Position numbers and translations under genes: made by a program
Part shown: positions 19,221 through 31,585 of the stretch, one piece after another
Layout of the letters: each line of letters starts with the position of its first letter
Numbering within the stretch: position 1 is the stretch's first letter
The notes under the pieces: model-generated
Database searches by the model: none
What the model saw: only the letters and a program-made list of their open reading frames with translations
Told to the model about the DNA's origin: nothing
Assembly: GCF_001563225.1 (NCBI RefSeq)
Contig: NZ_CP014206.1
Span: forward strand, 3,406,001 to 3,470,000
From: Pseudodesulfovibrio indicus
GTDB taxonomy: Bacteria > Desulfobacterota > Desulfovibrionia > Desulfovibrionales > Desulfovibrionaceae
Direction of reading: 5' to 3'
Length of the DNA: 64,000 nucleotides

Positions 19221-19332
19221 ACCCGGTTTTCATTGCAAATGGCGTAAAACCGCCACCTCCAGCCCATGTAGACATTGCGCTTTTTTTCATTTTTGTGATA
19301 AAGTACAATTTTGCAGCCTAATAATTACCTCA

Positions 19333-19361
19333 AAATTGTCAAAATGTAAAAAATTGTCAAA
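19333..19361. repeat. Direct repeat AAATTGTCAAA upstream of amtB
   Basis: The 11-base sequence occurs at 19333-19343 and 19351-19361, 18 bases apart, 115-140 bases upstream of the sigma-54-like promoter in an AT-rich region. The position fits an enhancer-binding activator site, but the sequence is not the classical NtrC palindrome. Confidence 0.35.
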
Positions 19362-19421
19362 TACGCCAAAAAGTGACCGCCGGTCGCAGGTTTTTCTCCG
19401 TTTTTGCCTATCTATATGAAA

Positions 19422-19468
19422 TATAATAGAATCTTTTTGTTGACATAAACACCCTCCCGGTGTAGCTC
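19422..19468 (+). promoter_or_regulatory. Candidate promoters of the aromatic amino acid operon
   Basis: Two candidates lie before the leader ORF. TATAAT at 19422-19427 is a perfect -10 box but lacks a good -35; it would give a leader RNA starting near 19434. TTGACA at 19440-19445 is a perfect -35 box, with TAGCTC 17 bases later (19463-19468) as a poor -10; that would start the RNA almost at the leader ATG. The first fits translation of the leader better. Confidence 0.4.
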
Positions 19469-19476
19469 TATTCCCC

Positions 19477-19572
19477 ATGAACTCCACCACTGTTTCCACC
19501 GCATACTTTTCCAACTTTTACTTTTGGTATTGGTATAACCACGCTCGCGGGCTTGGAAGAGGTGCAGTGTAA
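19477..19572 (+). CDS. Aromatic leader peptide (attenuator) of the chorismate-Phe-Tyr-Trp operon
   Basis: A 31-residue ORF, ATG 19477 to TAA 19572. Residues 10-20 read YFSNFYFWYWY: four Tyr, three Phe and two Trp in eleven positions. Such a cluster is the hallmark of ribosome-mediated attenuation, and here all three aromatic amino acids made by the downstream operon are sensed at once. The ORF ends 132 bases before the first operon gene and is followed by competing hairpins (19611-19658). No strong ribosome site is seen, which is a weakness. Not long enough for routine gene finding, so likely to be unannotated. Confidence 0.75.
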   Translation: MNSTTVSTAYFSNFYFWYWYNHARGLGRGAV

Positions 19573-19610
19573 CCAGGTGGTGGTTCACACAAGCTGAAAA
19601 AAACTTCTTC

Positions 19611-19658
19611 AAGGGCCGCGGGCGAAAGCCGGCGGCCCTTGCCTTTTACGGCCGCCGG
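19611..19658 (+). promoter_or_regulatory. Attenuator: overlapping terminator and competing hairpin
   Basis: Hairpin A: AAGGGCCGC (19611-19619) pairs with GCGGCCCTT (19632-19640), with an inner GGC-GAAA-GCC helix, followed by GCCTTTTA. Hairpin B: CCGGCGGCC (19629-19637) pairs perfectly with GGCCGCCGG (19650-19658) and would break A. A third pairing, CGCGGGCTT inside the leader ORF (19546-19554) with AAGCCGGCG (19626-19634, one mismatch), could also open A. Hairpin A is the likely terminator. Which pairing is favoured when ribosomes stall was not computed. Confidence 0.6.
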
Positions 19659-19704
19659 ACTTCGGCCCGGCTCCTTGGGGGAAAACCTTCAAAGGAGAGA
19701 GAAC

Positions 19705-20502
19705 ATGCACATCGGTAAAGCCATCAGGCTGGAGCGGATCTTCAACCGAAACACCGGCCGGACCATCGTGGTCCCCATGGACCACGGCGTGACCGTCGGC
19801 CCCATTGACGGACTTGTCGACATGCGCGAGGCCGTGGGCCGGGTCGTGGACGGCGGGGCAAACGCCGTCATCGAGCACAAGGGGCTGGTCCGCTGCGGCC
19901 ACCGCGCCGAAGGCAAGGACATCGGGCTCATCGTCCACCTGTCCGCCTCCACCTCCCTGTCCCCCTTCCCCAACGCCAAATCCCTGGTCGCCTCCGTGGA
20001 GGACGCCATCCGGTTGGGCGCGGACGCCGTGTCCATCCACTGCAACCTCGGCGACGAAACCGAGGCGTCCATGCTGAACGATTTCGGCAAAGTCTCCTCC
20101 GAGGCCGCCAACTGGGGCATCCCGCTGCTGGCCATGGTCTACGCGCGCGGTCCCAAGGTGAAGAACGAATACGCCCCGGAGATCGTGGCCCACTGCGCCC
20201 GCGTGGGCACCGAGCTGGGCGCGGACGTGGTCAAGGTCAACTACACCGGCGACATCAAGTCCTTCACCCACGTCACCGACTCCTGCTGCGTGCCCGTGGT
20301 CATCGCCGGGGGGCCGAAACTTGACAGCACCGAGGCATTCCTTCAGATGGTGCATGATTCCCTGGAGGCCGGAGGCGCCGGATTGTCCGTGGGACGCAAC
20401 GTCTTCCAGCACGAGAACCCCACCCGACTGGTGGAGGCCCTGAACATGATCGTCCACAACGACGAGACCGTCGAGGCCGCCCTGAACCATCTCAACGGAT
20501 AG
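19705..20502 (+). CDS. 2-amino-3,7-dideoxy-D-threo-hept-6-ulosonate (ADH) synthase, archaeal-type first shikimate step
   Basis: 265 residues, class I aldolase fold. It belongs to the MJ0400-type family, which condenses a 6-deoxy-5-ketofructose phosphate with aspartate semialdehyde and replaces DAHP synthase. Family blocks seen are [18 protein letters not shown] near the N-terminus and the Schiff-base lysine region [12 protein letters not shown], then [11 protein letters not shown] 19705 follows AAAGGAGA. First gene of the operon and 9 bases before the type II dehydroquinate synthase, its pathway partner, which supports the assignment over fructose-bisphosphate aldolase. Confidence 0.9.
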
Positions 20503-20511
20503 AAGAGAGCC

Positions 20512-21495
20512 ATGAAGAAAGTCATTTTCAAATCCGTCCCCTTTGACAAGGTCCTGGTCACCCTGGCGCTGGAATCCGGCGTGGACGCGGTGATGGTCGA
20601 GAAGGACAAGGTCGCGGACGTCCGGGCGCTGGGCCGGGTCAAGGTCATCACCCCCGAGGACATGCCCGTGGTCGAGCTGACCAAGAAGGCCGACGAGGAA
20701 GTCGCGGTCAAGGCGATCAAGGCGGGCAAGGACGTGGTCCTCAAAAAGGGCTGGGAGATCATCCCCGTGGAAAACATCCTGGCGCAGGTGGACACCCTGG
20801 CCCTGGAATGCGAAAGTCTGGACCGCGCGGTCCTGGCCGCGGGCATCCTGGAGCGCGGCTGCGATACGGTCGTGGTCCTGCCCGAAGGGGGCGCGGACCT
20901 GAAGCAGATCGTCGCCGAACTCAAACTCTCCCAGGGAACCATGGAACTGCAAACCGCCACCGTCACCGCCATCGAGCCCGCCGGGCTGGGCCACCGCGTC
21001 TGCGTGGACACCATCTCCGTACTCAAGCGCGGCCAGGGCATGCTCATCGGCAATTCCAGCGCCTTCTCCTTCCTGGTCCACGCCGAGACCGAATCCAACC
21101 CCTACGTCGCGGCCCGGCCGTTCCGGGTCAACGCGGGCGCGGTTCACGCCTATGCCCAGATGCCCGGCGACAAGACCACCTACCTGGACGAGCTGGCGGC
21201 GGGCACGGACGTGCTCATCGTCGGGGCCGACGGGGCCACCTCCCTGGCCACCGTGGGCAGGGTCAAGGTGGAGGTCCGGCCCATGCTGCTGATCACCGCC
21301 GAGGTGAAGACCGCAGGCGGGACCAAGACCGGCCAGGTCTTCCTCCAGAACGCCGAAACCATCCGCGTGGTCTCGGACAAGGGCGAACCTGTGTCCGTGG
21401 TCACCCTGAAGGTCGGCGACAAGATCCTGGTCAGGACCGACGAGGCGGGCCGCCACTTCGGCATGCGCATCAAAGAGGACATCAAGGAGGGCTAA
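20512..21495 (+). CDS. 3-dehydroquinate synthase type II
   Basis: 327 residues, matching the MJ1249-type family, which converts ADH to 3-dehydroquinate by NAD-dependent oxidative deamination and cyclisation; it is unrelated to classical AroB. Recognised from overall sequence (N-terminal KKVIFKSVPFDK, central GLGHRVCVDTISVLKRGQGM, SNPYVAARPFRVNAGAVHAY). Start ATG 20512 after AGAGAG. Translationally close to the ADH synthase; together they supply dehydroquinate. Dehydroquinase, AroE, AroK and AroC are not in the window. Confidence 0.92.
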   Translation: MKKVIFKSVPFDKVLVTLALESGVDAVMVEKDKVADVRALGRVKVITPEDMPVVELTKKADEEVAVKAIKAGKDVVLKKGWEIIPVENILAQVDTLALECESLDRAVLAAGILERGCDTVVVLPEGGADLKQIVAELKLSQGTMELQTATVTAIEPAGLGHRVCVDTISVLKRGQGMLIGNSSAFSFLVHAETESNPYVAARPFRVNAGAVHAYAQMPGDKTTYLDELAAGTDVLIVGADGATSLATVGRVKVEVRPMLLITAEVKTAGGTKTGQVFLQNAETIRVVSDKGEPVSVVTLKVGDKILVRTDEAGRHFGMRIKEDIKEG

Positions 21496-21517: not shown

Positions 21518-22630
21518 ATGGCCGACAAGACCGACGCCCCAGACGCAACCGACATCCCCGACCTCGGCGAGCTGCGCGAAGCCATCGACGCGCTGGACAC
21601 GAGGATCGTGGACCTGCTCAACGAGCGGGCCAAGCTCTCCCTGAGCGTGGGCCGCTACAAGGCCGCCAAGGGCGAGCCCATCTACAAGCCGTTCCGCGAG
21701 CAGGAAGTCATGGACAAGATCGCGGAATCGAGCCCCGGCCCCCTGCCGGACAAGCACCTGCGGACCATCTACCGCGAGATCATGAGCTCGTCGCGGCATT
21801 TGCAGCGGCCCGAGCGGGTGGTCTATCTCGGCCCGGAGGGAACCTTCTCCTACTTTGCGGCCATCGAGCACATGGGTTCTTCCGCCGCCCTGACCCCCAA
21901 GTCCAACTTCGAGGAGATTTTCCGGGCCGTGGCCGAGGAAGGCGCGGAGCTGGGCGTCATCCCCCTGGAGAACTCCATCGAGGGGACCGTGGGCCAGGTG
22001 GTGGACCTGTTCATGAAGTACAAGGTCTACATCCAGGCCGAGGTCTTCAGCCGCATCAGCCATTGCCTCATCTCCCACGCCGCCAAGGTCGAGGACGTGG
22101 AGGTCATCTACTCCCACCCGCAGCCCCTGGGCCAGTGCCGGGACTGGCTGCGCACCCACCTGCGCGACGTGCCGACCATCCCCATGGAGTCCACGGCCGA
22201 GGCCGCGGAGGTGGTGGCGGGCAAGAAAGCCGCCGCCGTGGTGGGTCACGTCAGGCTGGCGGACATGCACGGCATGAACGTCCTGGCCGAATCCATCGAG
22301 GACATGCCGGACAACTGGACCCGGTTCCTGATCATCGGCGCGGCCCCGTCCCAGGAGGACCGCCGCGACAAAACCTCAATTTTGTTCACCACGCCCAACC
22401 GCCCCGGGGCCCTGGCCCGGGTGCTGACCACCCTGGCGCACCAGGGGATCAACGTGACCAAGCTCGAATCCCGTCCCTTCCGGGGCGAGAAATGGAAATA
22501 CGTCTTTTTCGCCGACTTGGGCTGCGACCTGAGCGGCGGACGGTACGAGGACGTCCTCGCGGACATCCGCAACCAGTGCCATACGCTGCGCGTGCTGGGC
22601 ACCTACCCGACCCAGGAGGAACTGCAATGA
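21518..22630 (+). CDS. pheA: Bifunctional chorismate mutase / prephenate dehydratase (P-protein)
   Basis: 370 residues. Residues about 12-95 are an AroQ-type chorismate mutase (LREAIDALDTRIVDLLNERA with catalytic Arg/Lys positions). Residues about 97-275 are prephenate dehydratase starting at VVYLGPEGTFSYFAA and ending in the catalytic Thr-Arg-Phe (DNWTRFLII). Residues about 285-365 form an ACT domain with TPNRPGALARVL and ESRPF, which binds Phe for feedback inhibition. Its stop codon overlaps the aroA start (ATGA). Confidence 0.96.
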   Translation: MADKTDAPDATDIPDLGELREAIDALDTRIVDLLNERAKLSLSVGRYKAAKGEPIYKPFREQEVMDKIAESSPGPLPDKHLRTIYREIMSSSRHLQRPERVVYLGPEGTFSYFAAIEHMGSSAALTPKSNFEEIFRAVAEEGAELGVIPLENSIEGTVGQVVDLFMKYKVYIQAEVFSRISHCLISHAAKVEDVEVIYSHPQPLGQCRDWLRTHLRDVPTIPMESTAEAAEVVAGKKAAAVVGHVRLADMHGMNVLAESIEDMPDNWTRFLIIGAAPSQEDRRDKTSILFTTPNRPGALARVLTTLAHQGINVTKLESRPFRGEKWKYVFFADLGCDLSGGRYEDVLADIRNQCHTLRVLGTYPTQEELQ

Positions 22631-23967
22631 CCCAGGACCCGATCATCATCAACGCTCCGGCCAGCAAATCCCTCTCTCACCGCACCCTCATCGCCGCCGC
22701 GCTGGCGAACGGCGTGTCCGAGATATCCTCGGCCCTGCGTTCCGACGACATCACCCGCACCCGCGACTGCCTCACGGCCTGCGGAGCATCCATAGAGGAA
22801 AAGGGCGACCTGCTGGTGGTCACCGGCATGGAGGACGGACCCAAGGGCGGCAATGCGGACGGCAAGCACAAGGACGAAGCGCCCCACGAGCTGTTCATGC
22901 ACGAGTCCGGCACCACCTGCCGGCTGATGACCGGCGTGGCCGCGGCGGGCAAGGGAACTTTCCGGGTGCACGGCGCGGAGCGCATGCACGAGCGCCCCAT
23001 GGCCGAGCTGGTCTCGGCCCTGTCCGGGCTGGGGACCAAGTTCGCCTTCGAGGGCAAGGAAGGGTTCCTGCCCTTTGTCATGACCGCAAACGGCTACAGG
23101 AAGAAGAGTGCCGAGATCACCCTGGAGGAGAGCAGCCAGTACCTGTCCGGCCTGCTCCTGGGTGCGCCGCTGGCCGACCACGAGATCACCATCAGCGTGA
23201 CCGGCAAGAAGGCCGTGTCCTGGCCCTACGTGGCCCTGACCCTGCGGATCATGGAGGATTTCAAGGCCGAATTCGAGGTCGAGGTCAAGGAAGGACGCGT
23301 CTGGAAAACGGTCCCCTGGCGCTCGGTGAAGAACGCCACCCCCGGCAAGATCCGGTTCATCGTCAAGCCCACGGGCTACGACGCCACGGGCTACCGGGTG
23401 GAGGGCGACTGGTCCAACGCGAGCTATTTCCTGGCCGCCGGTGCCGTGGGCAAGCGGCCGGTGCTGATCAAGGGCCTGGCCGCGGACTCGCTCCAGGGCG
23501 ACCGCGCCATCATGGACATCCTCAGCCAGATGGGGGCGTCCATCAAGGTGACCTTCGAGGGCATCCTGGTGGAGCCGAGCCGGTTGCGCGGCATCCAGGT
23601 GGACATGGGCCGCTGCCCGGACCTGGTCCCCACCGTGGCCGCAGTGGCCGCCTTCGCGTCCACGCCCACGACCATCGGCAACGTGGCCCATCTGCGCCTC
23701 AAGGAGACGGACCGGCTGGCGGCCTGCGCCACCGAGGTGGCCCGCACCCAGTGCGAGACCGAGACCACCAGCGACTCGCTGATCGTCCGCCCCGCCCGGT
23801 TGCCCAGGGGGCACGCCGTGTCCTTCAAGACCTACAACGACCACCGCATGGCCATGTCCATGTCGCTGTTCCAGCTGGCGGGCCTGGACGTCACCCTTGA
23901 CAACCCCGCCTGCGTCGGCAAATCATTCCCGGGCTTCTGGGACGAGTGGAAGAAAATCACCGGATAG
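22627..23967 (+). CDS. aroA: 3-phosphoshikimate 1-carboxyvinyltransferase (EPSP synthase)
   Basis: 446 residues from ATG 22627, which overlaps the pheA stop; an open frame continues upstream but is a shadow inside pheA. Joins shikimate 3-phosphate and PEP. Motifs: NAPASKSLSHR (PEP/S3P-binding Lys, Ser, Arg), ESGTTCRLMTG in place of the usual LGNAGT, LKETDRLAACATE and NDHRMAMS. The divergent second motif suggests a class other than the E. coli enzyme, with possible lower glyphosate sensitivity; that is speculative. Confidence 0.94.
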   Translation: MTQDPIIINAPASKSLSHRTLIAAALANGVSEISSALRSDDITRTRDCLTACGASIEEKGDLLVVTGMEDGPKGGNADGKHKDEAPHELFMHESGTTCRLMTGVAAAGKGTFRVHGAERMHERPMAELVSALSGLGTKFAFEGKEGFLPFVMTANGYRKKSAEITLEESSQYLSGLLLGAPLADHEITISVTGKKAVSWPYVALTLRIMEDFKAEFEVEVKEGRVWKTVPWRSVKNATPGKIRFIVKPTGYDATGYRVEGDWSNASYFLAAGAVGKRPVLIKGLAADSLQGDRAIMDILSQMGASIKVTFEGILVEPSRLRGIQVDMGRCPDLVPTVAAVAAFASTPTTIGNVAHLRLKETDRLAACATEVARTQCETETTSDSLIVRPARLPRGHAVSFKTYNDHRMAMSMSLFQLAGLDVTLDNPACVGKSFPGFWDEWKKITG

Positions 23968-23982
23968 GGGATCGGCGGAACC

Positions 23983-24753
23983 ATGGCAGCAGGAATCTAC
24001 AGAGTCGCCGTAATGGGCGCCCAGGGCCAGATGGGGAGCCGCTTCACGGCGGACTTCCGCCGTCTCGGCCTGAAGGTCGCCGAGCTGGATCGCGCCTCCT
24101 CGGAGGATGACGTCCGCTCGGCCCTGGACGGCTGCCATCTGCTCATGCTCAGCGTCCCGGTGACCGCCATGGAAGCGGTCCTGGACCGGGTCCTGCCCCA
24201 TCTCGCGCCGCCGACCATCCTGTGCGACGTCGGCTCGGTGAAGGTCCTGCCGCTCAAGGCCATGACGGACCGCTATCCCGGCCCGGTGGTCGGCACCCAC
24301 CCGCTGTTCGGACCGGTGATCCCCGAGGGATTCACGCCCAGGGTGGCGGTCATGCCGGGCCACGAGGACGACGTGGACGCCGCCGCCGACGTGGCCGGGC
24401 TGCTCAAGCGGTGCGGCTACCGGTCCTTCGCGTCCACGCCCCAGGAGCACGACCGCGCCATGGCCTACATCCAGGGGCTGAACTTCACCTCCACCGTGGC
24501 TTTCCTGGCCGCGGCCCGCGACCTGGAGGGAATCGAGAATTTCGTGACCCCCTCCTTCCAGCGCAGGCTCGATTCGGCCGCCAAGATGCTGACCCAGGAC
24601 ACCGAGCTGTTCGAGGTCATCTCCGAGGCCAACCCGTTTCTCCAGGAAGTGAACCGCAAGTTCCTGTCCTACCTGAGCCTGGCCGCCGGCGGCGACCTGG
24701 AGCTCCTGGCCGACAGGGCCCAGTGGTGGTGGCGCGACGAGACGGCATATTAA
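23983..24753 (+). CDS. tyrA: Prephenate dehydrogenase
   Basis: 256 residues. N-terminal Rossmann fold with VAVMGAQGQMGSRF as dinucleotide loop, followed by GTHPLFGP, the conserved His-Pro-Leu-Phe-Gly-Pro block, and a helical C-terminal dimerisation region. Converts prephenate to 4-hydroxyphenylpyruvate. No ACT domain, so feedback by Tyr must act differently, perhaps through the operon leader. Sixteen bases after aroA. It is followed by a hairpin that may separate it from the trp genes. Confidence 0.93.
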   Translation: MAAGIYRVAVMGAQGQMGSRFTADFRRLGLKVAELDRASSEDDVRSALDGCHLLMLSVPVTAMEAVLDRVLPHLAPPTILCDVGSVKVLPLKAMTDRYPGPVVGTHPLFGPVIPEGFTPRVAVMPGHEDDVDAAADVAGLLKRCGYRSFASTPQEHDRAMAYIQGLNFTSTVAFLAAARDLEGIENFVTPSFQRRLDSAAKMLTQDTELFEVISEANPFLQEVNRKFLSYLSLAAGGDLELLADRAQWWWRDETAY

Positions 24754-24998: not shown

Positions 24999-26448
<1,450 letters not shown>

Positions 26449-26468
<20 letters not shown>

Positions 26469-27021
26469 CTTCGACTCCTTCACCTTCAATCTGGTGCAGG
26501 CGTTCCAGCAGCTCGGGGCCGATCCGGTGGTCATCCGCAACGACCGCGAGTCGCTGCTCGACCTCGCAAGCGGCGGCGAACTCACCCGGGTCTGCCTCTC
26601 CCCCGGCCCCAGCAACCCGCAGAACGCGGGCTACTGCCTGGAGTTCCTGGCCCGGCTGCCCAAGGAGATCCCGGTGCTCGGCGTCTGCCTGGGCCACCAG
26701 ACCCTGGGCCACTTCGCGGGCGCGCCCGTGGAGCGCGCGGCCCGCATCATGCACGGCAAGGTCTCGGAGGTGGTCCACGAGGGCCGGAGCGTGTTCGCGG
26801 GACTCCCCTCCCCGTTCACGGTCTGCCGCTACCACTCCCTGATCGTCCCGGCCGAAAAGGCTGCGGACAGGATCGAGGTCACGGCCCGCACCGCCGAGGG
26901 CGAGGTCATGGGGCTCCAGTACAAGGACCGCCCCTGGCACGGAGTGCAGTTCCACCCGGAATCCATCCTCACCCCCGAAGGACCGAAACTCCTCCAGAAC
27001 TTCCTGAACATCAAAGGATAA
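26449..27021 (+). CDS. trpG: Anthranilate synthase component II (glutamine amidotransferase)
   Basis: 190 residues, class I glutamine amidotransferase. Catalytic Cys in VLGVCLGHQTLG, His/Glu in GVQFHPESILT. Supplies ammonia to TrpE. Not fused to TrpD. ATG 26449 lies inside the end of trpE and is preceded by AGGGAGG. Confidence 0.96.
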
Positions 27022-27025
27022 CGCC

Positions 27026-28037
27026 ATGACGATACCCGAAATACTCGAAATACTGGCCCAGAAGAAACCCCTGTCCGACGAACAGGCGGACTTCATGTTC
27101 GAAGAGCTGATGACCGGCAACCTGAGCGAGGCCCAGGCCGGGGCGTTCCTCATGGGGCTGCGGGCCAAGGGCGAGGACTCCACCGACCTGGCCGCGGGCG
27201 TGCGCGCCTGCCTGCCTGGCCCACGCCCGGACCATCCCCGGCATCAAGGCCACCCCGGACAACCCGATCTTCGACACCGTGGGCACCGGCGGCGACGGCC
27301 AGCACTCCTTCAACAACTCCACCGCCGTGTCCCTGTTCCTGGCGGACATGGGCTACACCGTGGCCAAGCACGGCAACCGCGCCCTGTCCTCCTCCTGCGG
27401 CTCGGCGGACGCGCTGGAAGGGCTGGGCATCCCCCTGGAGCAGACCCCGGAAGAGGCCCGCGACGGGCTTGAGAAATACCACTTCGCCTTCCTGTTCGCC
27501 CCGGCCTACCACCCCGCCTTCAAGTTCATCATGCCCGTGCGCAAGCAGCTCGGCATCCGCACCCTGTTCAACTTCATGGGCCCGCTGCTCAACCCGGTCC
27601 GTCCCTCCCACCAGCTCATCGGCGTGGGCGACCCGGACCGCCTCTTCCTCATGGGCGAGACCCTGCTCCTGACCGGCGTCAAACGCGCGCTGATCTTCGC
27701 GGGCGGGGGCGGCTTCGACGAACTGACCACCTGGGGCGTGAACCGGGGCTACGTCCTGACCGACGGGCGCATGGAGAAGACCGTGGTCGATGCGGCCACC
27801 CTGGGCTTCCCCCGGCACAGCCCGGACCAGGTGCGCGTCTCCGGCAAGGAAGACGCCATCGCCACCCTGCGCACCATCCTCGACGGCAAGGGGCCGGAAC
27901 CCATGATGGACATGGTGGCGCTGAATCTGGCAGGGTGCCTCCATCTCCTGGACAAGGGGACCATGGCCGAATGCGCCGACATCGCCCGAGACGTGGTTCA
28001 CGCGGGCCTGACCAAAGGAATTCCCTATGCTGGATAA
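27026..28037 (+). pseudogene. trpD: Anthranilate phosphoribosyltransferase, interrupted by a 4-base GCCT repeat expansion
   Basis: The gene begins in one frame (MTIPEILEILAQKKPLSDEQ, to residue Ala-Cys-Leu near 27214) and continues in another (LAHARTIPGIKATPDNP, then DTVGTGGDGQHSFNNST onward to 28037). The break falls in GCCTGCCTGCCT, three copies of GCCT at 27206-27217. Removing one copy restores an uninterrupted 335-residue TrpD, the normal length, with the PRPP loop GTGGDG and KHGNRALSS intact. As written, translation would read 148 residues and stop at 27472, giving no enzyme. This could be real slippage, a programmed shift or a sequencing error. Overlaps trpC by 11 bases. Confidence 0.9.
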
Positions 28038-28794
28038 ATTCAGAGAGGCCAAGCAGCTCGAAATCGAGTCCCTGCGAAAAGACTTCATGGAGGGGCGCAT
28101 CCCCGCCGTGTACCAGGGCGAACGCCCGTCCTTCACCGAGGCCATCAAGGCCAAGGGGCCGGGCGCGATCATCGCCGAGTTCAAGCCCGCCAGCCCGAGC
28201 AAGGGCGTGCTGCGCGAGAACCTGAACCCCCTGGACTACGCGGACGCCTACGCCAAAAACGGCGCGGCGGCCATCTCCGTGCTCACCGAACACAAGTACT
28301 TCAAGGGGACCCCGGACTTCCTGTTCATGATGAACGGAACCGGGCTGCCCCTGCTCAGGAAGGACTTCATCTTCGACCCGCTCCAGGTGGCCATGACCGC
28401 GTCCAGCCCGGCCTCGGCCGTACTGCTCATCGCCCGCATGTGCGACGACGCAGGGCACCTCAAGCAACTCATCGACATCGCCCGCATGCCGGGCCTGGCC
28501 CCGGTGGTCGAGATATTCGACCAGGCGGACCTGGACCTGGCGCGCCACGCCGGGGCGGACATCATCCAGGTCAACAACCGCGACCTGGACACCCTGACCA
28601 CCACCCTGGACCAGGGCCGCAAGTTCATCAAACAGAAGCGGGACGGCGAGCTCTGGATCTGCGCCAGCGGCGTGTCCGAACGCGCCCAGGTGGAGGAAAT
28701 GGCCGGACTCGGCTTCGACGCCGTGCTCATCGGCACCTGCCTCATGGAGGCCGATGACCCCGGAGCCAAGCTGGCCGAACTCACGGGAGCCTGA
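28027..28794 (+). CDS. trpC: Indole-3-glycerol-phosphate synthase
   Basis: 255 residues, TIM barrel, not fused to TrpF. Ring closure of CdRP to indole glycerol phosphate. Family blocks: IAEFKPASPSKGVLRE, ISVLTEHKYFKGTPDFL, LLRKDFIFDPLQV and INNRDL in the form VNNRDLDTLTT. Starts inside the end of trpD and ends 3 bases before trpF. Confidence 0.95.
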   Translation: MLDKFREAKQLEIESLRKDFMEGRIPAVYQGERPSFTEAIKAKGPGAIIAEFKPASPSKGVLRENLNPLDYADAYAKNGAAAISVLTEHKYFKGTPDFLFMMNGTGLPLLRKDFIFDPLQVAMTASSPASAVLLIARMCDDAGHLKQLIDIARMPGLAPVVEIFDQADLDLARHAGADIIQVNNRDLDTLTTTLDQGRKFIKQKRDGELWICASGVSERAQVEEMAGLGFDAVLIGTCLMEADDPGAKLAELTGA

Positions 28795-28797
28795 TCC

Positions 28798-29424
28798 ATG
28801 CAACGCCCCCTGGTCAAAGTCTGCGGCATGACCCGCATGGAAGACGTCAAGCTCTGCGTCGATCTCGGCGTGGACCTCTTGGGCTTCATCTTCCATCCGA
28901 GGAGCCCGCGCAACGCGGACCCGGATTTCGTCGCCTCGGTCAAGACCGGCAAGGTCACCAAGGTCGGCGTGTTCGTCGACCAGACCGCCGACGAGGTCAT
29001 CGAGATCATGGACCGCTGCGGACTGCACGCGGCCCAGCTGCACGGCGGCCAGGACTCGGTCTACTGCTGGAAGATCGGCCCGGACCGGGTCATCCGCGTC
29101 TTCTGGCCCGACACCTACGGCTCCCCCGGCGCCCTCGTGCGCGACCTGGAGGACTACGCCGAGGTCTGCGGCCATTTCCTGCTCGACGCGGGGACCAAGG
29201 GCCAGGGCGGCACCGGCAAGTCCATTAATTTAAAGATACTGCAAGATATTGAAATACAAACACCTTGGTTCCTTGCAGGGGGTCTCGGACCGGACAACGT
29301 CAGGCAGGCCCTGGCCGTCAATCCGTCCGGTCTGGACTTCAATTCCGGCGTGGAGAGCGCGCCCGGCATCAAGGACCCAGCCAAGCTGCGGGAAGTCTTT
29401 CGGATTCTCGCGGAAATGGAATAA
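28798..29424 (+). CDS. trpF: Phosphoribosylanthranilate isomerase
   Basis: 208 residues, TIM barrel. Starts MQRPLVKVCGMTRMEDV, with the catalytic Cys in KVCGMT; the catalytic Asp lies in GVFVDQT and the phosphate-binding C-terminal part in GLDFNSGVESAPGIKD. Isomerises PRA to CdRP. A short AT-rich segment (29221-29265) interrupts the GC-rich coding pattern without breaking the frame. Confidence 0.94.
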   Translation: MQRPLVKVCGMTRMEDVKLCVDLGVDLLGFIFHPRSPRNADPDFVASVKTGKVTKVGVFVDQTADEVIEIMDRCGLHAAQLHGGQDSVYCWKIGPDRVIRVFWPDTYGSPGALVRDLEDYAEVCGHFLLDAGTKGQGGTGKSINLKILQDIEIQTPWFLAGGLGPDNVRQALAVNPSGLDFNSGVESAPGIKDPAKLREVFRILAEME

Positions 29425-29433
29425 GGAACAATC

Positions 29434-30597
29434 ATGAAAAAAGGATACTTCGGCGATTTCGGCGGGCAGTTCATCCCCGAGCTGCTCATGCCGCCGCTCA
29501 TAGAGCTCGAAGAAGCCATGGCCACCATCCTGCCCACCGAGGAGTTCCAGACCCGCTTCACGAACATGCTCAAGGAAAACGTGGGCCGCCCCTCGGCCAT
29601 CACCTACTGCCCCAACCTGTCCAAGGACCTCGGCCTGGACCTCTGGCTCAAGCGCGAGGACCTCAACCACTCCGGGGCGCACAAGATCAACAACACCCTG
29701 GGCCAGGGACTGCTGGCCAAGATGATGGGCAAGGACGTGCTCCTGGCCGAGACCGGCGCGGGCATGCACGGCGTGGCCACCACGGTCGCCGCCGCCATGC
29801 TCGACATGAAGGCCGTCATCTACATGGGCGCCACCGACGTGGTGCGCCAGGCCCCCAACGTGAACCGCATGCGCCTCATGGGCGCGGAGATCGTGCCCGT
29901 CGAGTCAGGCACCAAGACCCTCAAGGACGCCATCAACGAGGCCCTGCGCCGCTGGCTGTCCGACCAGGAGACCACCCACTACTGCTTCGGCACCGCCGCC
30001 GGGCCGCACCCCTTCCCCACCCTGGTCCGCGAGTTCCAGCAGATCATCTCCAAGGAAGCGCGCCAGCAGTTCATGGACCGCAACGCGGGCAGGCTGCCCG
30101 ACGTGGTCGTGGCCTGCGTGGGCGGCGGCTCCAACGCCATCGGCATGTTCCACAACTTCGTGCCCGACGAGTCCGTGGAGCTGGTCGGCGTCGAGGCCGC
30201 GGGCACCGGCGAGCCGGGCTGCTACAGCTCCGCGCCGCTGGACCACGGCACCGACGGCGTGCTGCACGGCATGCTCACCAAGCTGCTCCAGACCGTTGAC
30301 GGCCAGATCGAACCGTCCCACTCCGTGGCCCCAGGCCTGGACTATCCCGGCGTCGGCCCGGAACACGCGCACCTGCACGCCACCGGGCGCGGCCACTACG
30401 TGACCATCAACGACGAACAGGCCATCAATGCCTTCAAGGTCCTGTCCCGGCGCGAAGGCATCATCCCGGCCCTGGAATCGTCCCACGCCGTGGCCTACGC
30501 CATCGAGAACAAGGACAGGCTCCAAGGCAAATCCGTGCTCGTCTGCCTGTCCGGGCGCGGCGACAAGGACCTGGGGATACTGGACCAGATATTATAA
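29434..30597 (+). CDS. trpB: Tryptophan synthase beta subunit
   Basis: 387 residues, PLP enzyme of the TrpB1 type. PLP lysine in LKREDLNHSGAHKINNTLGQ, phosphate-binding CVGGGSNAIGMF, and the C-terminal SGRGDKDL. Starts with KKGYFGDFGGQFIPELL, typical of beta subunits that pair with TrpA. Nine bases after trpF. Confidence 0.97.
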   Translation: MKKGYFGDFGGQFIPELLMPPLIELEEAMATILPTEEFQTRFTNMLKENVGRPSAITYCPNLSKDLGLDLWLKREDLNHSGAHKINNTLGQGLLAKMMGKDVLLAETGAGMHGVATTVAAAMLDMKAVIYMGATDVVRQAPNVNRMRLMGAEIVPVESGTKTLKDAINEALRRWLSDQETTHYCFGTAAGPHPFPTLVREFQQIISKEARQQFMDRNAGRLPDVVVACVGGGSNAIGMFHNFVPDESVELVGVEAAGTGEPGCYSSAPLDHGTDGVLHGMLTKLLQTVDGQIEPSHSVAPGLDYPGVGPEHAHLHATGRGHYVTINDEQAINAFKVLSRREGIIPALESSHAVAYAIENKDRLQGKSVLVCLSGRGDKDLGILDQIL

Positions 30598-30603
30598 GAG
30601 ATA

Positions 30604-30678
30604 TGCCTCCGGCGGCTTAAGAACCTTTTGAAAAAGGTTCTTAAAAATCTCCAAAACTTTTTATGTGCGCTTCGCGCA
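30604..30678. repeat. Intergenic hairpin repeat, copy 1 (between trpB and trpA)
   Basis: Consists of TGCCTCCGGCGGC, a perfect 13-bp stem TTAAGAACCTTTT (30617-30629) with AAAAGGTTCTTAA (30632-30644), the link CAAAACTTTTT, and a small TGCG/CGCA hairpin (30666-30678). The same order of parts recurs after trpA (31469-31585), so this is a repeat family rather than a plain terminator. Confidence 0.65.
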
Positions 30679-30704
30679 AGGGGGCGCATGAAAAGGTGAT
30701 AGAA

Positions 30705-31466
30705 ATGAATCCGATGCAGATAAAGATAGAAGAGGCAAAGGCCAAAGGAAAGGTCGGGTTGATACCCTTCCTGCCCGCAGGGTTCCCGGACCGGGAACAG
30801 TTCTGGACCGAACTCGCGGAGCTCGACGCGGCGGGCGCGTCCGTCATCGAGATCGGCATGCCGTTCTCCGACCCCGTGGCCGACGGCCCGGTGGTGGAGA
30901 AAGCGTCCCTCAAATGCCTGGCCGACGGCATCAACCTGGCCTGGATTCTGACCGAGCTCAAGAAGCGCAAGGGGCAGTTCAAGGCCGCCCTGCTGCTCAT
31001 GGGCTACCTCAACCCGGTCTACCAGTACGGCCTGGACAAATTCGGCAAGGACTGCGCCGAGGCGGGCGTGTCCGGCCTGATCATCGCGGACATGCCCCTT
31101 GAGGAGTCGCAGTTCGTCAAGGACGCCATCGCCCCGCACAACGTCGCCCTGGTCCCGCTCATCGGCCTGAACACCACCAAGGAACGCATGAAGCTCTACG
31201 CCGACGGCGCGCAGGGGTTCTGCTACTTCGTGTCCGTGCTCGGCACCACCGGCCAGCGCGAATCCCTGCCCGCGCGCATCAAGGAAAAACTGGCCGAGGC
31301 CAAGGAAGTCTTCGACATCCCCGTCGCGCTGGGCTTCGGCATCAAACACCCCGACCAACTCGCCGAGTTCGAAGGACTCATGGACGCCGCCGTGTTCGGC
31401 TCCGCCCTCATCTCCCACATCCAATCCGGCAACTCCAGCGCCTCCTTCATGGAGCCCTGGAAGTAG
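30705..31466 (+). CDS. trpA: Tryptophan synthase alpha subunit
   Basis: 253 residues from ATG 30705 (weak AAAGG upstream; another in-frame ATG three codons later). TIM barrel; catalytic Glu in VIEIGMPFSDPVADGPVV and Asp in LIIADMPLEE. Cleaves indole glycerol phosphate and channels indole to TrpB. Separated from trpB by 107 bases containing a hairpin repeat, unusual for this otherwise tight operon and likely to lower or modulate its expression. Confidence 0.95.
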   Translation: MNPMQIKIEEAKAKGKVGLIPFLPAGFPDREQFWTELAELDAAGASVIEIGMPFSDPVADGPVVEKASLKCLADGINLAWILTELKKRKGQFKAALLLMGYLNPVYQYGLDKFGKDCAEAGVSGLIIADMPLEESQFVKDAIAPHNVALVPLIGLNTTKERMKLYADGAQGFCYFVSVLGTTGQRESLPARIKEKLAEAKEVFDIPVALGFGIKHPDQLAEFEGLMDAAVFGSALISHIQSGNSSASFMEPWK

Positions 31467-31468
31467 GT

Positions 31469-31585
31469 TGCCTCCGGCGGCCGGGGGAAGGGGGAGAAAA
31501 ACCCTTTGAAAAGGGTTCTTTCTCCCCCTTCCCCCGGACCCCCATCCCCCTCTTTTCCCAAACTTTTTGGTGCCGCCTTCGGCGG
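31469..31585. repeat. Intergenic hairpin repeat, copy 2 (after trpA)
   Basis: Same plan as copy 1: TTGCCTCCGGCGGCC, then a long stem (31481-31504 with 31513-31537; AACCC-TTTGAAAA-GGGTT at the tip), CAAACTTTTT, and CCGCC-TTC-GGCGG (31573-31585). It may also end the trp operon, though there is no T-run right after the stem. Confidence 0.65.

Follow-up and report, generated by a model that had tools for sequence, protein, structure and literature searches.

The 64,000-nucleotide stretch of the Pseudodesulfovibrio indicus genome analyzed here (the window) carries, on the forward strand, a short open reading frame (ORF) followed by an operon of twelve genes that extends to 31466 and encodes chorismate-pathway steps together with phenylalanine, tyrosine and tryptophan synthesis. 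In order, these are the genes for 2-amino-3,7-dideoxy-D-threo-hept-6-ulosonate (ADTH) synthase (19705–20502; NCBIfam TIGR01949, 394.7 bits against a cut-off of 299.45), 3-dehydroquinate (DHQ) synthase II (20512–21495; NF002628, 566.4 bits against 508), the chorismate mutase-prephenate dehydratase PheA (21518–22630; NF008865 and TIGR01807, both above cut-off), 3-phosphoshikimate 1-carboxyvinyltransferase (EPSP synthase, aroA; 22627–23967; TIGR01356, above cut-off), a TyrA-like prephenate dehydrogenase (23983–24753; Pfam PF02153 above cut-off, NCBIfam matches below), and trpE, trpG, trpD, trpC, trpF, trpB and trpA (24999–31466). TyrA, TrpE, TrpC and TrpF fall under the curated NCBIfam cut-offs, yet their top matches carry those names, and gene order and family matches together bear out the chorismate-Phe-Tyr-Trp operon that a preliminary description of this DNA had read from the sequence.

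Two side observations concern the distal end of the operon. The trpD gene (27026–28037) is frameshifted at about 27206–27213, where a short repeat contains a surplus GCCT unit of four bases; this unit is absent from three aligned relatives (L061, L062 and L065), and it is either a real lesion or an assembly error. Directly after trpA lies a near-perfect long inverted repeat (31476–31543; −57.8 kcal/mol for 31470–31560), which likely marks the end of the operon and which draws chance miRNA matches in Rfam.

Leader ORF and its conservation

The short ORF (19477–19572, forward strand) has 31 codons, ends 132 nt upstream of the ADTH synthase gene, and encodes MNSTTVSTAYFSNFYFWYWYNHARGLGRGAV, a predicted product without a Pfam match. 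Its codons 10–20 (19504–19536; YFSNFYFWYWY) comprise three Phe codons, all TTT, four Tyr codons (two TAT and two TAC) and two Trp TGG codons, so that the ORF and residue cluster singled out in the preliminary description are both present. To gauge how exceptional such an ORF is, we scanned 4.08 million strand-bases, covering the window and a further 155 loci on both strands, for ATG-initiated ORFs of 12–60 codons with at least 7 aromatic residues in 12, and within the window the leader ORF was the sole one. Across the whole set there were 139 aromatic-dense ORFs; 126 of them are leaders, namely 120 mapped in front of the operon, four Phe leaders in front of the paralog, and one each at L138 and L235, and the other 13 are not. 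The leader ORF is thus not a product of chance.

Taxonomically, the leader was followed through two samples of Desulfovibrionales. The first held 60 loci chosen by best ADTH synthase matches (34 from the genus and 26 from others) plus the window, with one of the 36 genus genomes, G024, lacking a copy of the operon; the second held 75 loci from a wider set of genera, picked by DHQ synthase II. An aromatic leader precedes the ADTH synthase gene at all 61 loci of the first sample and at 69 of the 75 in the second, making 130 of 136. Among the other six, all from the second sample, L237 and L244 have ADTH synthase and no aromatic leader was found, L220 and L235 are ambiguous (L235 has a leader-like ORF in the scan described above), and L208 and L227 have no ADTH synthase within the fetched stretch. 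In the best 12-residue window of the 130 leaders, Phe, Tyr and Trp occur together in 114, and Phe and Tyr in the remaining 16. Thus the aromatic cluster, whose loss in relatives would have spoken against the preliminary description, is kept, and its proposal that one leader combines all three aromatic amino acids gains support from these 114 leaders. Over 19300–19720, no Rfam family, amino-acid leaders and T-box included, reached its gathering score, nor was there a curated-score match in 9 and 8 relatives' loci; membership in an Rfam family was rejected, the only matches being sub-threshold and of chance type.

Terminator and antiterminator

Between the leader and the first gene lies a predicted intrinsic terminator, as expected of a ribosome-mediated attenuator. 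Its stem (19610–19641) has a folding energy of −29.5 kcal/mol (shuffle z −4.9), which confirms the hairpin with a terminal T-run noted earlier, and is formed by strand 3 (19603–19624), serving as the 5′ arm, and strand 4 (19628–19641), the 3′ arm. The 3:4 helix has 98.2% of its cells paired in the genus alignment and 97.9% in that of the order sample, and so the terminator, like the aromatic cluster, holds up in relatives. Of 348 genomes of the order, 244 contain an exact form of the terminator motif, not always at this locus, and 10 contain a reversed control pattern. A generic terminator scan did not include this hairpin in its list. The stem is followed by a short U-run (CCTTTTA, 19642–19648); 26 of 35 genus sequences have 6–8 T here, and the longest T-run is 4 in the window genome, also 4 in four other genus sequences, and 2 in L079. 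Given this short U-run and the frameshifted trpD, the window genome may be a poor working example of the system.

The structure that would compete with the terminator is an antiterminator formed by strand 3 with strand 2 (19542–19563), which lies in the last third of the leader ORF, at its end. Among 34 distinct genus sequences, 91.0% of the cells of the 2:3 helix are paired, and among 60 distinct sequences of the order sample the figure is 84.4%; slid controls give 41–53%. One of its pairs varies as T:A in 58 loci, C:G in 43, T:G in 5 and A:T in 3, without a mismatch among the 109 loci assigned (a score filter left 3 of 112 unassigned). In the window, this covarying base sits in a G.G mismatch inside the terminator and is paired in the antiterminator. 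We regard this pair as the best single proof, at the level of sequence comparison, of 2:3, and hence of a putative antiterminator that overlaps the end of the leader ORF, is mutually exclusive with the terminator, and covaries. Upstream of both, strand 1 (19503–19517), part of the control-codon stretch, is able to form a protector helix (1:2) with strand 2; this helix is paired in 84.8% of cells in the genus, with two-sided changes in 2 of its 13 pairs.

Predicted behavior of the switch

To place the ribosome on this RNA, we used a model in which its footprint reaches 14 nt beyond the first base of the codon in the A site. For the window's leader, the modeled probability of the antiterminator, P(2:3), lies between 0.91 and 0.56 while the A site is on codons 8–20, and drops to 0.15 on codon 21 and 0.00 on codon 22, so the antiterminator is lost two codons beyond the aromatic block of codons 10–20. 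Folding the region in stalled and unstalled states, as the preliminary description had suggested, gives an antiterminator on the aromatic codons that disappears past codon 21. A strict terminator motif is present at 112 of the 130 loci, and at each of these an upstream ribosome allows the antiterminator to form. The modeled boundary precedes the last aromatic codon by 0 or 1 codon at 75 of the 112, lies earlier at 2 and comes 3–10 codons later at 35; these counts depend on the rule chosen for the last aromatic codon, and each change of 3 nt in the assumed footprint moves the boundary by one codon. When the ribosome occupies the last aromatic codon itself, P(2:3) is 0.5 or more at only 25 of the 112 loci. 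In silico, then, a stalled ribosome would leave strand 2 free and a ribosome at the stop codon would mask it.

Energetically, the terminator is always favored in the model at equilibrium once strand 4 is present, and the switch must therefore be kinetic. Before strand 4 emerges, P(2:3) is 0.91 even with no ribosome on the RNA, and for that reason the model does not support an action of the protector helix, which is thus only partly supported, by its conservation.

Taken together, the conserved leader, terminator and antiterminator support the leader peptide with attenuator proposed in the preliminary description, and comparison among loci establishes, at that level, the ORF, its codon content, both mutually exclusive helices and the tracking of genes by codons described below. 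We infer from this arrangement that the leader is translated from the start site discussed below and that the ribosome stalls in response to each of the three amino acids, and we consider it very probable that one leader peptide senses scarcity of any of them through ribosome-mediated transcription attenuation. RNA polymerase would start at or next to the leader ATG, as promoter spacing suggests, with a ribosome trailing it. When charged tRNA-Phe, tRNA-Tyr or tRNA-Trp is short, the ribosome would halt on codons 10–20 and leave strand 2 free to pair with strand 3 as it emerges, blocking the terminator so that the operon is transcribed; when all three are plentiful, the ribosome would run on and cover strand 2, allowing 3:4 to pair and transcription to terminate. 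The leader would thereby act as an OR gate for scarcity, in which a shortage of a single product is enough to turn on all three branches through one signal, and this poses a question of control in its own right. Such a switch, if true, would explain how aromatic synthesis is regulated in sulfate reducers that use the archaeal-type ADTH route.

Leader codons and gene content

In codon usage, the leaders differ from the genes that they precede: at 125 of 130 loci, a larger share of Phe and Tyr codons ends in T in the leader than in the ADTH synthase gene behind it, and in the window the TTT:TTC ratio is 3:0 in the leader versus 9:116 in eleven operon genes. The leaders also differ with gene content. 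In the second sample, counting Trp anywhere in the leader, a Trp codon is found in 30 of 30 leaders of trp-containing operons versus 22 of 34 without trp (Fisher p=0.0002, without correction for kinship). In the first sample every leader, 61 of 61, contains a Trp codon, and trpE was seen in 55 of these 61 operons, the contigs of the remaining 6 ending earlier. A strict rule, by which Trp codons vanish when trp genes leave, was rejected, as 22 of the 34 operons without trp retain one.

Where trpE lies elsewhere in the genome (20 genomes), an upstream ORF with 3 or more Trp within 6 residues is present in 14, as compared with 51 of 600 control segments, although the upstream segments measured 806–2021 bases against 870 for the controls and the longer ones favor matches. 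Five of the 20 had only 2 Trp in 6, a pattern that we set aside as uninformative because 283 of 600 control segments have it too, and L257 had none. The separate trp operons of L261–L265, L248–L252, L254–L256 and L260 have Trp-rich leader-like ORFs, and inspection by eye shows hairpins with T-runs after these ORFs.

Extra copies of ADTH synthase extend the series. In one clade of a lone extra ADTH synthase (at least 82% mutual identity), a Phe-rich, Trp-free leader is present in all 8 Pseudodesulfovibrio genomes examined and is followed, by eye, by a hairpin with a T-run; the leader is absent from the other extra copy in Pseudodesulfovibrio (7 of 7), and four extra copies of other genera have none, within an inspection of 38 hand-selected loci. 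The window's own genome holds two further copies, L121 (C1:2321816–2322601) and L122 (C1:794204–794986), one of them alone after a Phe-rich leader and hairpin and the other without a leader, so that its three ADTH synthase isozymes are apparently under different control. As judged by these comparisons of sequence, the codon content of the leader tracks the content of the genes downstream. Fused, split and orphan operons thus make up a natural series relating leader codons to regulated genes, in which the evolution of attenuation specificity becomes testable.

Tandem hairpins outside the Desulfovibrionales

Outside the Desulfovibrionales, in Desulfobacterales and other Deltaproteobacteria, an aromatic leader precedes the ADTH synthase gene at 28 of 30 loci with at least 300 nt upstream, the two without one being L028 and L032. 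Structure was examined at 27 loci hand-picked from L016–L058 (leaving out contigs with less than 200 nt upstream, L017, L028, L032, and loci belonging to the order or to other taxa), and 24 of these carry a pair of hairpins in tandem, with a T-run after each. In an alignment of these 24 sequences, four successive helices are paired in 94.8% (2:3), 95.3% (3:4), 97.5% (4:5) and 96.7% (5:6) of cells versus 23–60% for slid versions, a comparison that favors the helices, which were drawn on one of the 24. Two hairpins with T-runs are also seen by eye in the trp leaders of L261–L265, a Desulfobacterales group.

Mechanistically, these six strands could work as a ladder: a ribosome stall would let 2:3 form and leave strand 4 free, strand 4 would then pair with strand 5, and the second terminator, 5:6, would be disarmed, such that one stall would open two gates in series. 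If true, this would be a compact coupling of two terminators to a single ribosome event. The other reading is that the second hairpin is a duplicated fail-safe terminator and that 4:5 complementarity is a by-product, for strand 3 resembles strand 5 and strand 4 resembles strand 6, and a duplication would provide 4:5 pairing automatically; this resemblance is what makes the ladder likely rather than proved. Thermodynamically, 4:5 is predicted to form a hairpin of −8 kcal/mol or better in all 24 sequences, with a mean of −17.2 compared with −15.8 for 5:6, and equals or exceeds 5:6 in stability in 15 of the 24, falling below it in 9, the latter being in keeping with a simple duplicate. Two points weigh against the duplicate, however: an unconditional second terminator would hold the operon off, and in the related loci L019 and L047 a change that breaks a 5:6 pair is matched in strand 4, the same base keeping its 4:5 pair by a two-sided change from A-U to C-G, probably in a single event. 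We therefore hold the fail-safe duplicate to be possible, if on the doubtful side, and give about an even chance to the broader proposal, namely a modular attenuator family spanning Desulfovibrionales and Desulfobacterales, with the codon set rewired to the genes (Phe, Tyr and Trp for the supraoperon, Trp-rich for trp, and Phe-rich for the orphan ADTH synthase) and with a six-strand ladder in Desulfobacterales.

Alternative readings of the leader

For the Desulfovibrionales leader itself, three other readings were weighed. The first is that it senses mainly Trp, its Phe and Tyr codons being incidental, and this would suit the Trp codons found throughout the first sample and in the trp-containing operons of the second, as well as the position of both TGG codons near the modeled control boundary. 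It is quite unlikely, though, considering that 16 of 130 leaders have Phe and Tyr but no Trp in the cluster, that the 130 clusters hold 475 Phe and 376 Tyr codons versus 172 for Trp, and that the orphan ADTH synthase has Phe-rich leaders.

Some leader peptides act through their own sequence, with TnaC and SecM as examples of peptide-specific ribosome arrest. If the leader worked in this way, or as a functional microprotein, its amino-acid sequence would itself be selected, and the tail after the cluster (HARGLGRG) does look conserved in much of the genus. However, the codon overlapping the covarying base of 2:3 is mainly Cys, Arg or Ser, matching the base, so this tail residue varies as RNA pairing needs, and a requirement of the pairing rather than of the peptide would best explain it. 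The order and composition of the cluster, moreover, differ across genera, and the peptide lacks a Pfam match, all of which makes selection on the peptide very unlikely.

Finally, the preliminary description had taken as the alternative structure a hairpin of strand 4 with strand 5 (19629–19637 with 19650–19658), and while this hairpin exists, with 9 pairs in the window, is part of the minimum-energy fold of 19530–19665 (2:3 plus 4:5) and exceeds shuffled sequences in its pairing at 44 of 114 loci (p<0.05; for the genus, 20 of 33), it is hardly credible as the antiterminator, because strand 5 lies 3′ of the U-run and is transcribed only after it, such that the hairpin would form after the termination decision, and because its cells are 76.8% paired with two-sided changes in 0 of 9 pairs. 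The antiterminator is better sought in 2:3.

Comparison with described attenuators

The E. coli trp and pheA attenuators (trpL and pheL) have one amino acid per leader. Like them, the system described here combines a leader ORF that carries control codons with two alternative helices, 2:3 and 3:4, and a terminator before the first gene; unlike them, it has codons for three amino acids and precedes a supraoperon for common-pathway steps and all three branches. Leaders that read several end products are known from branched-chain synthesis, where the E. coli ilvGMEDA leader has codons for several of them. That operon is named in PMC1183508, and C. glutamicum ilvBNC has a multivalent branched-chain leader whose transcript begins a single nucleotide away from the start codon of the leader (PMC11857589). 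Both resemble the present case in having a single leader with codons for several end products and differ in that these are branched-chain rather than aromatic, and the source passages contain no tandem-terminator ladder. With regard to initiation, the nearly leaderless C. glutamicum ilvL and the trpL of Sinorhizobium meliloti, whose attenuator RNA has the leader ATG at its 5′ end (PMC7298713), resemble the predicted leaderless start here; trpL differs, in the passages concerned, in its 14-residue leader and its trp genes alone.

Closest in place is the aroA'-aroB'-aroQpheA-aroF-tyrA-trp supraoperon of D. vulgaris, for which a putative attenuator was listed in 2005 by automatic prediction (PMC1173090, Table 7) and which has the same operon type and position as the leader here; the text of that paper has no words beginning "leader", and its passages on this operon gave no leader peptide, codon content, antiterminator or comparative evidence. 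In Acholeplasma, the uORFC-13-1 motif upstream of aroF is a proposed Phe-reading ORF with a terminator (PMC8632094), alike in placing both before the first shikimate gene and different, as its source passages describe it, in reading Phe only, in structure and in phylum. The novelty claimed in the preliminary description stands in part, a putative attenuator before this operon having already been listed (PMC1173090). Among the matches listed in open-licence literature there was no trivalent aromatic leader and no such ladder, an absence that weighs little given this scope. That literature gave nothing joining Desulfovibrio, a leader peptide, attenuation and an aromatic amino acid or trp operon, nor the locus tags DVU0460, DVU0461, DVU0464 and DVU0465, and word searches of PMC545781 and PMC2965389 gave nothing on the operon. 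The attenuation mechanism proposed is classical, and the trivalent aromatic leader and the putative ladder are the parts for which we found no description in that literature.

Promoter and start of the leader

Upstream of the leader, a −35 box (TTGACA, 19440–19445, forward strand) precedes by 17 nt a predicted −10 element (TAGCTC, 19463–19468). A TTGAC[ATC] box can be paired with an in-frame start 20–90 nt downstream at 125 of 130 loci, and in 89 of these 125 the distance is 35–39 nt, the pair nearest 37 nt being taken where several were possible. With a 17-nt spacer, transcription would start on the ATG or only a few nt from it, and the leader is therefore predicted to be leaderless. A generic promoter scan listed 19404–19432 as a candidate instead of the box at 19440. 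The Shine-Dalgarno match of the leader is weak in most loci, with a duplex energy of −4 kcal/mol or below in 13 of 61 leaders of the first sample even when the start with the best energy was taken, and promoter spacing offers an explanation. At 31 of the 125 loci, including L187, L188 and L194, the leader lies 42–80 nt from the −35 box. These 31 have a mean Shine-Dalgarno energy of −3.8 versus −2.8 for the 90 at 34–40 nt (p=0.005), with energies of −5 or better in 12 of 31 versus 13 of 90, and it is possible that the same leader switches between leaderless and ordinary initiation from one locus to another.
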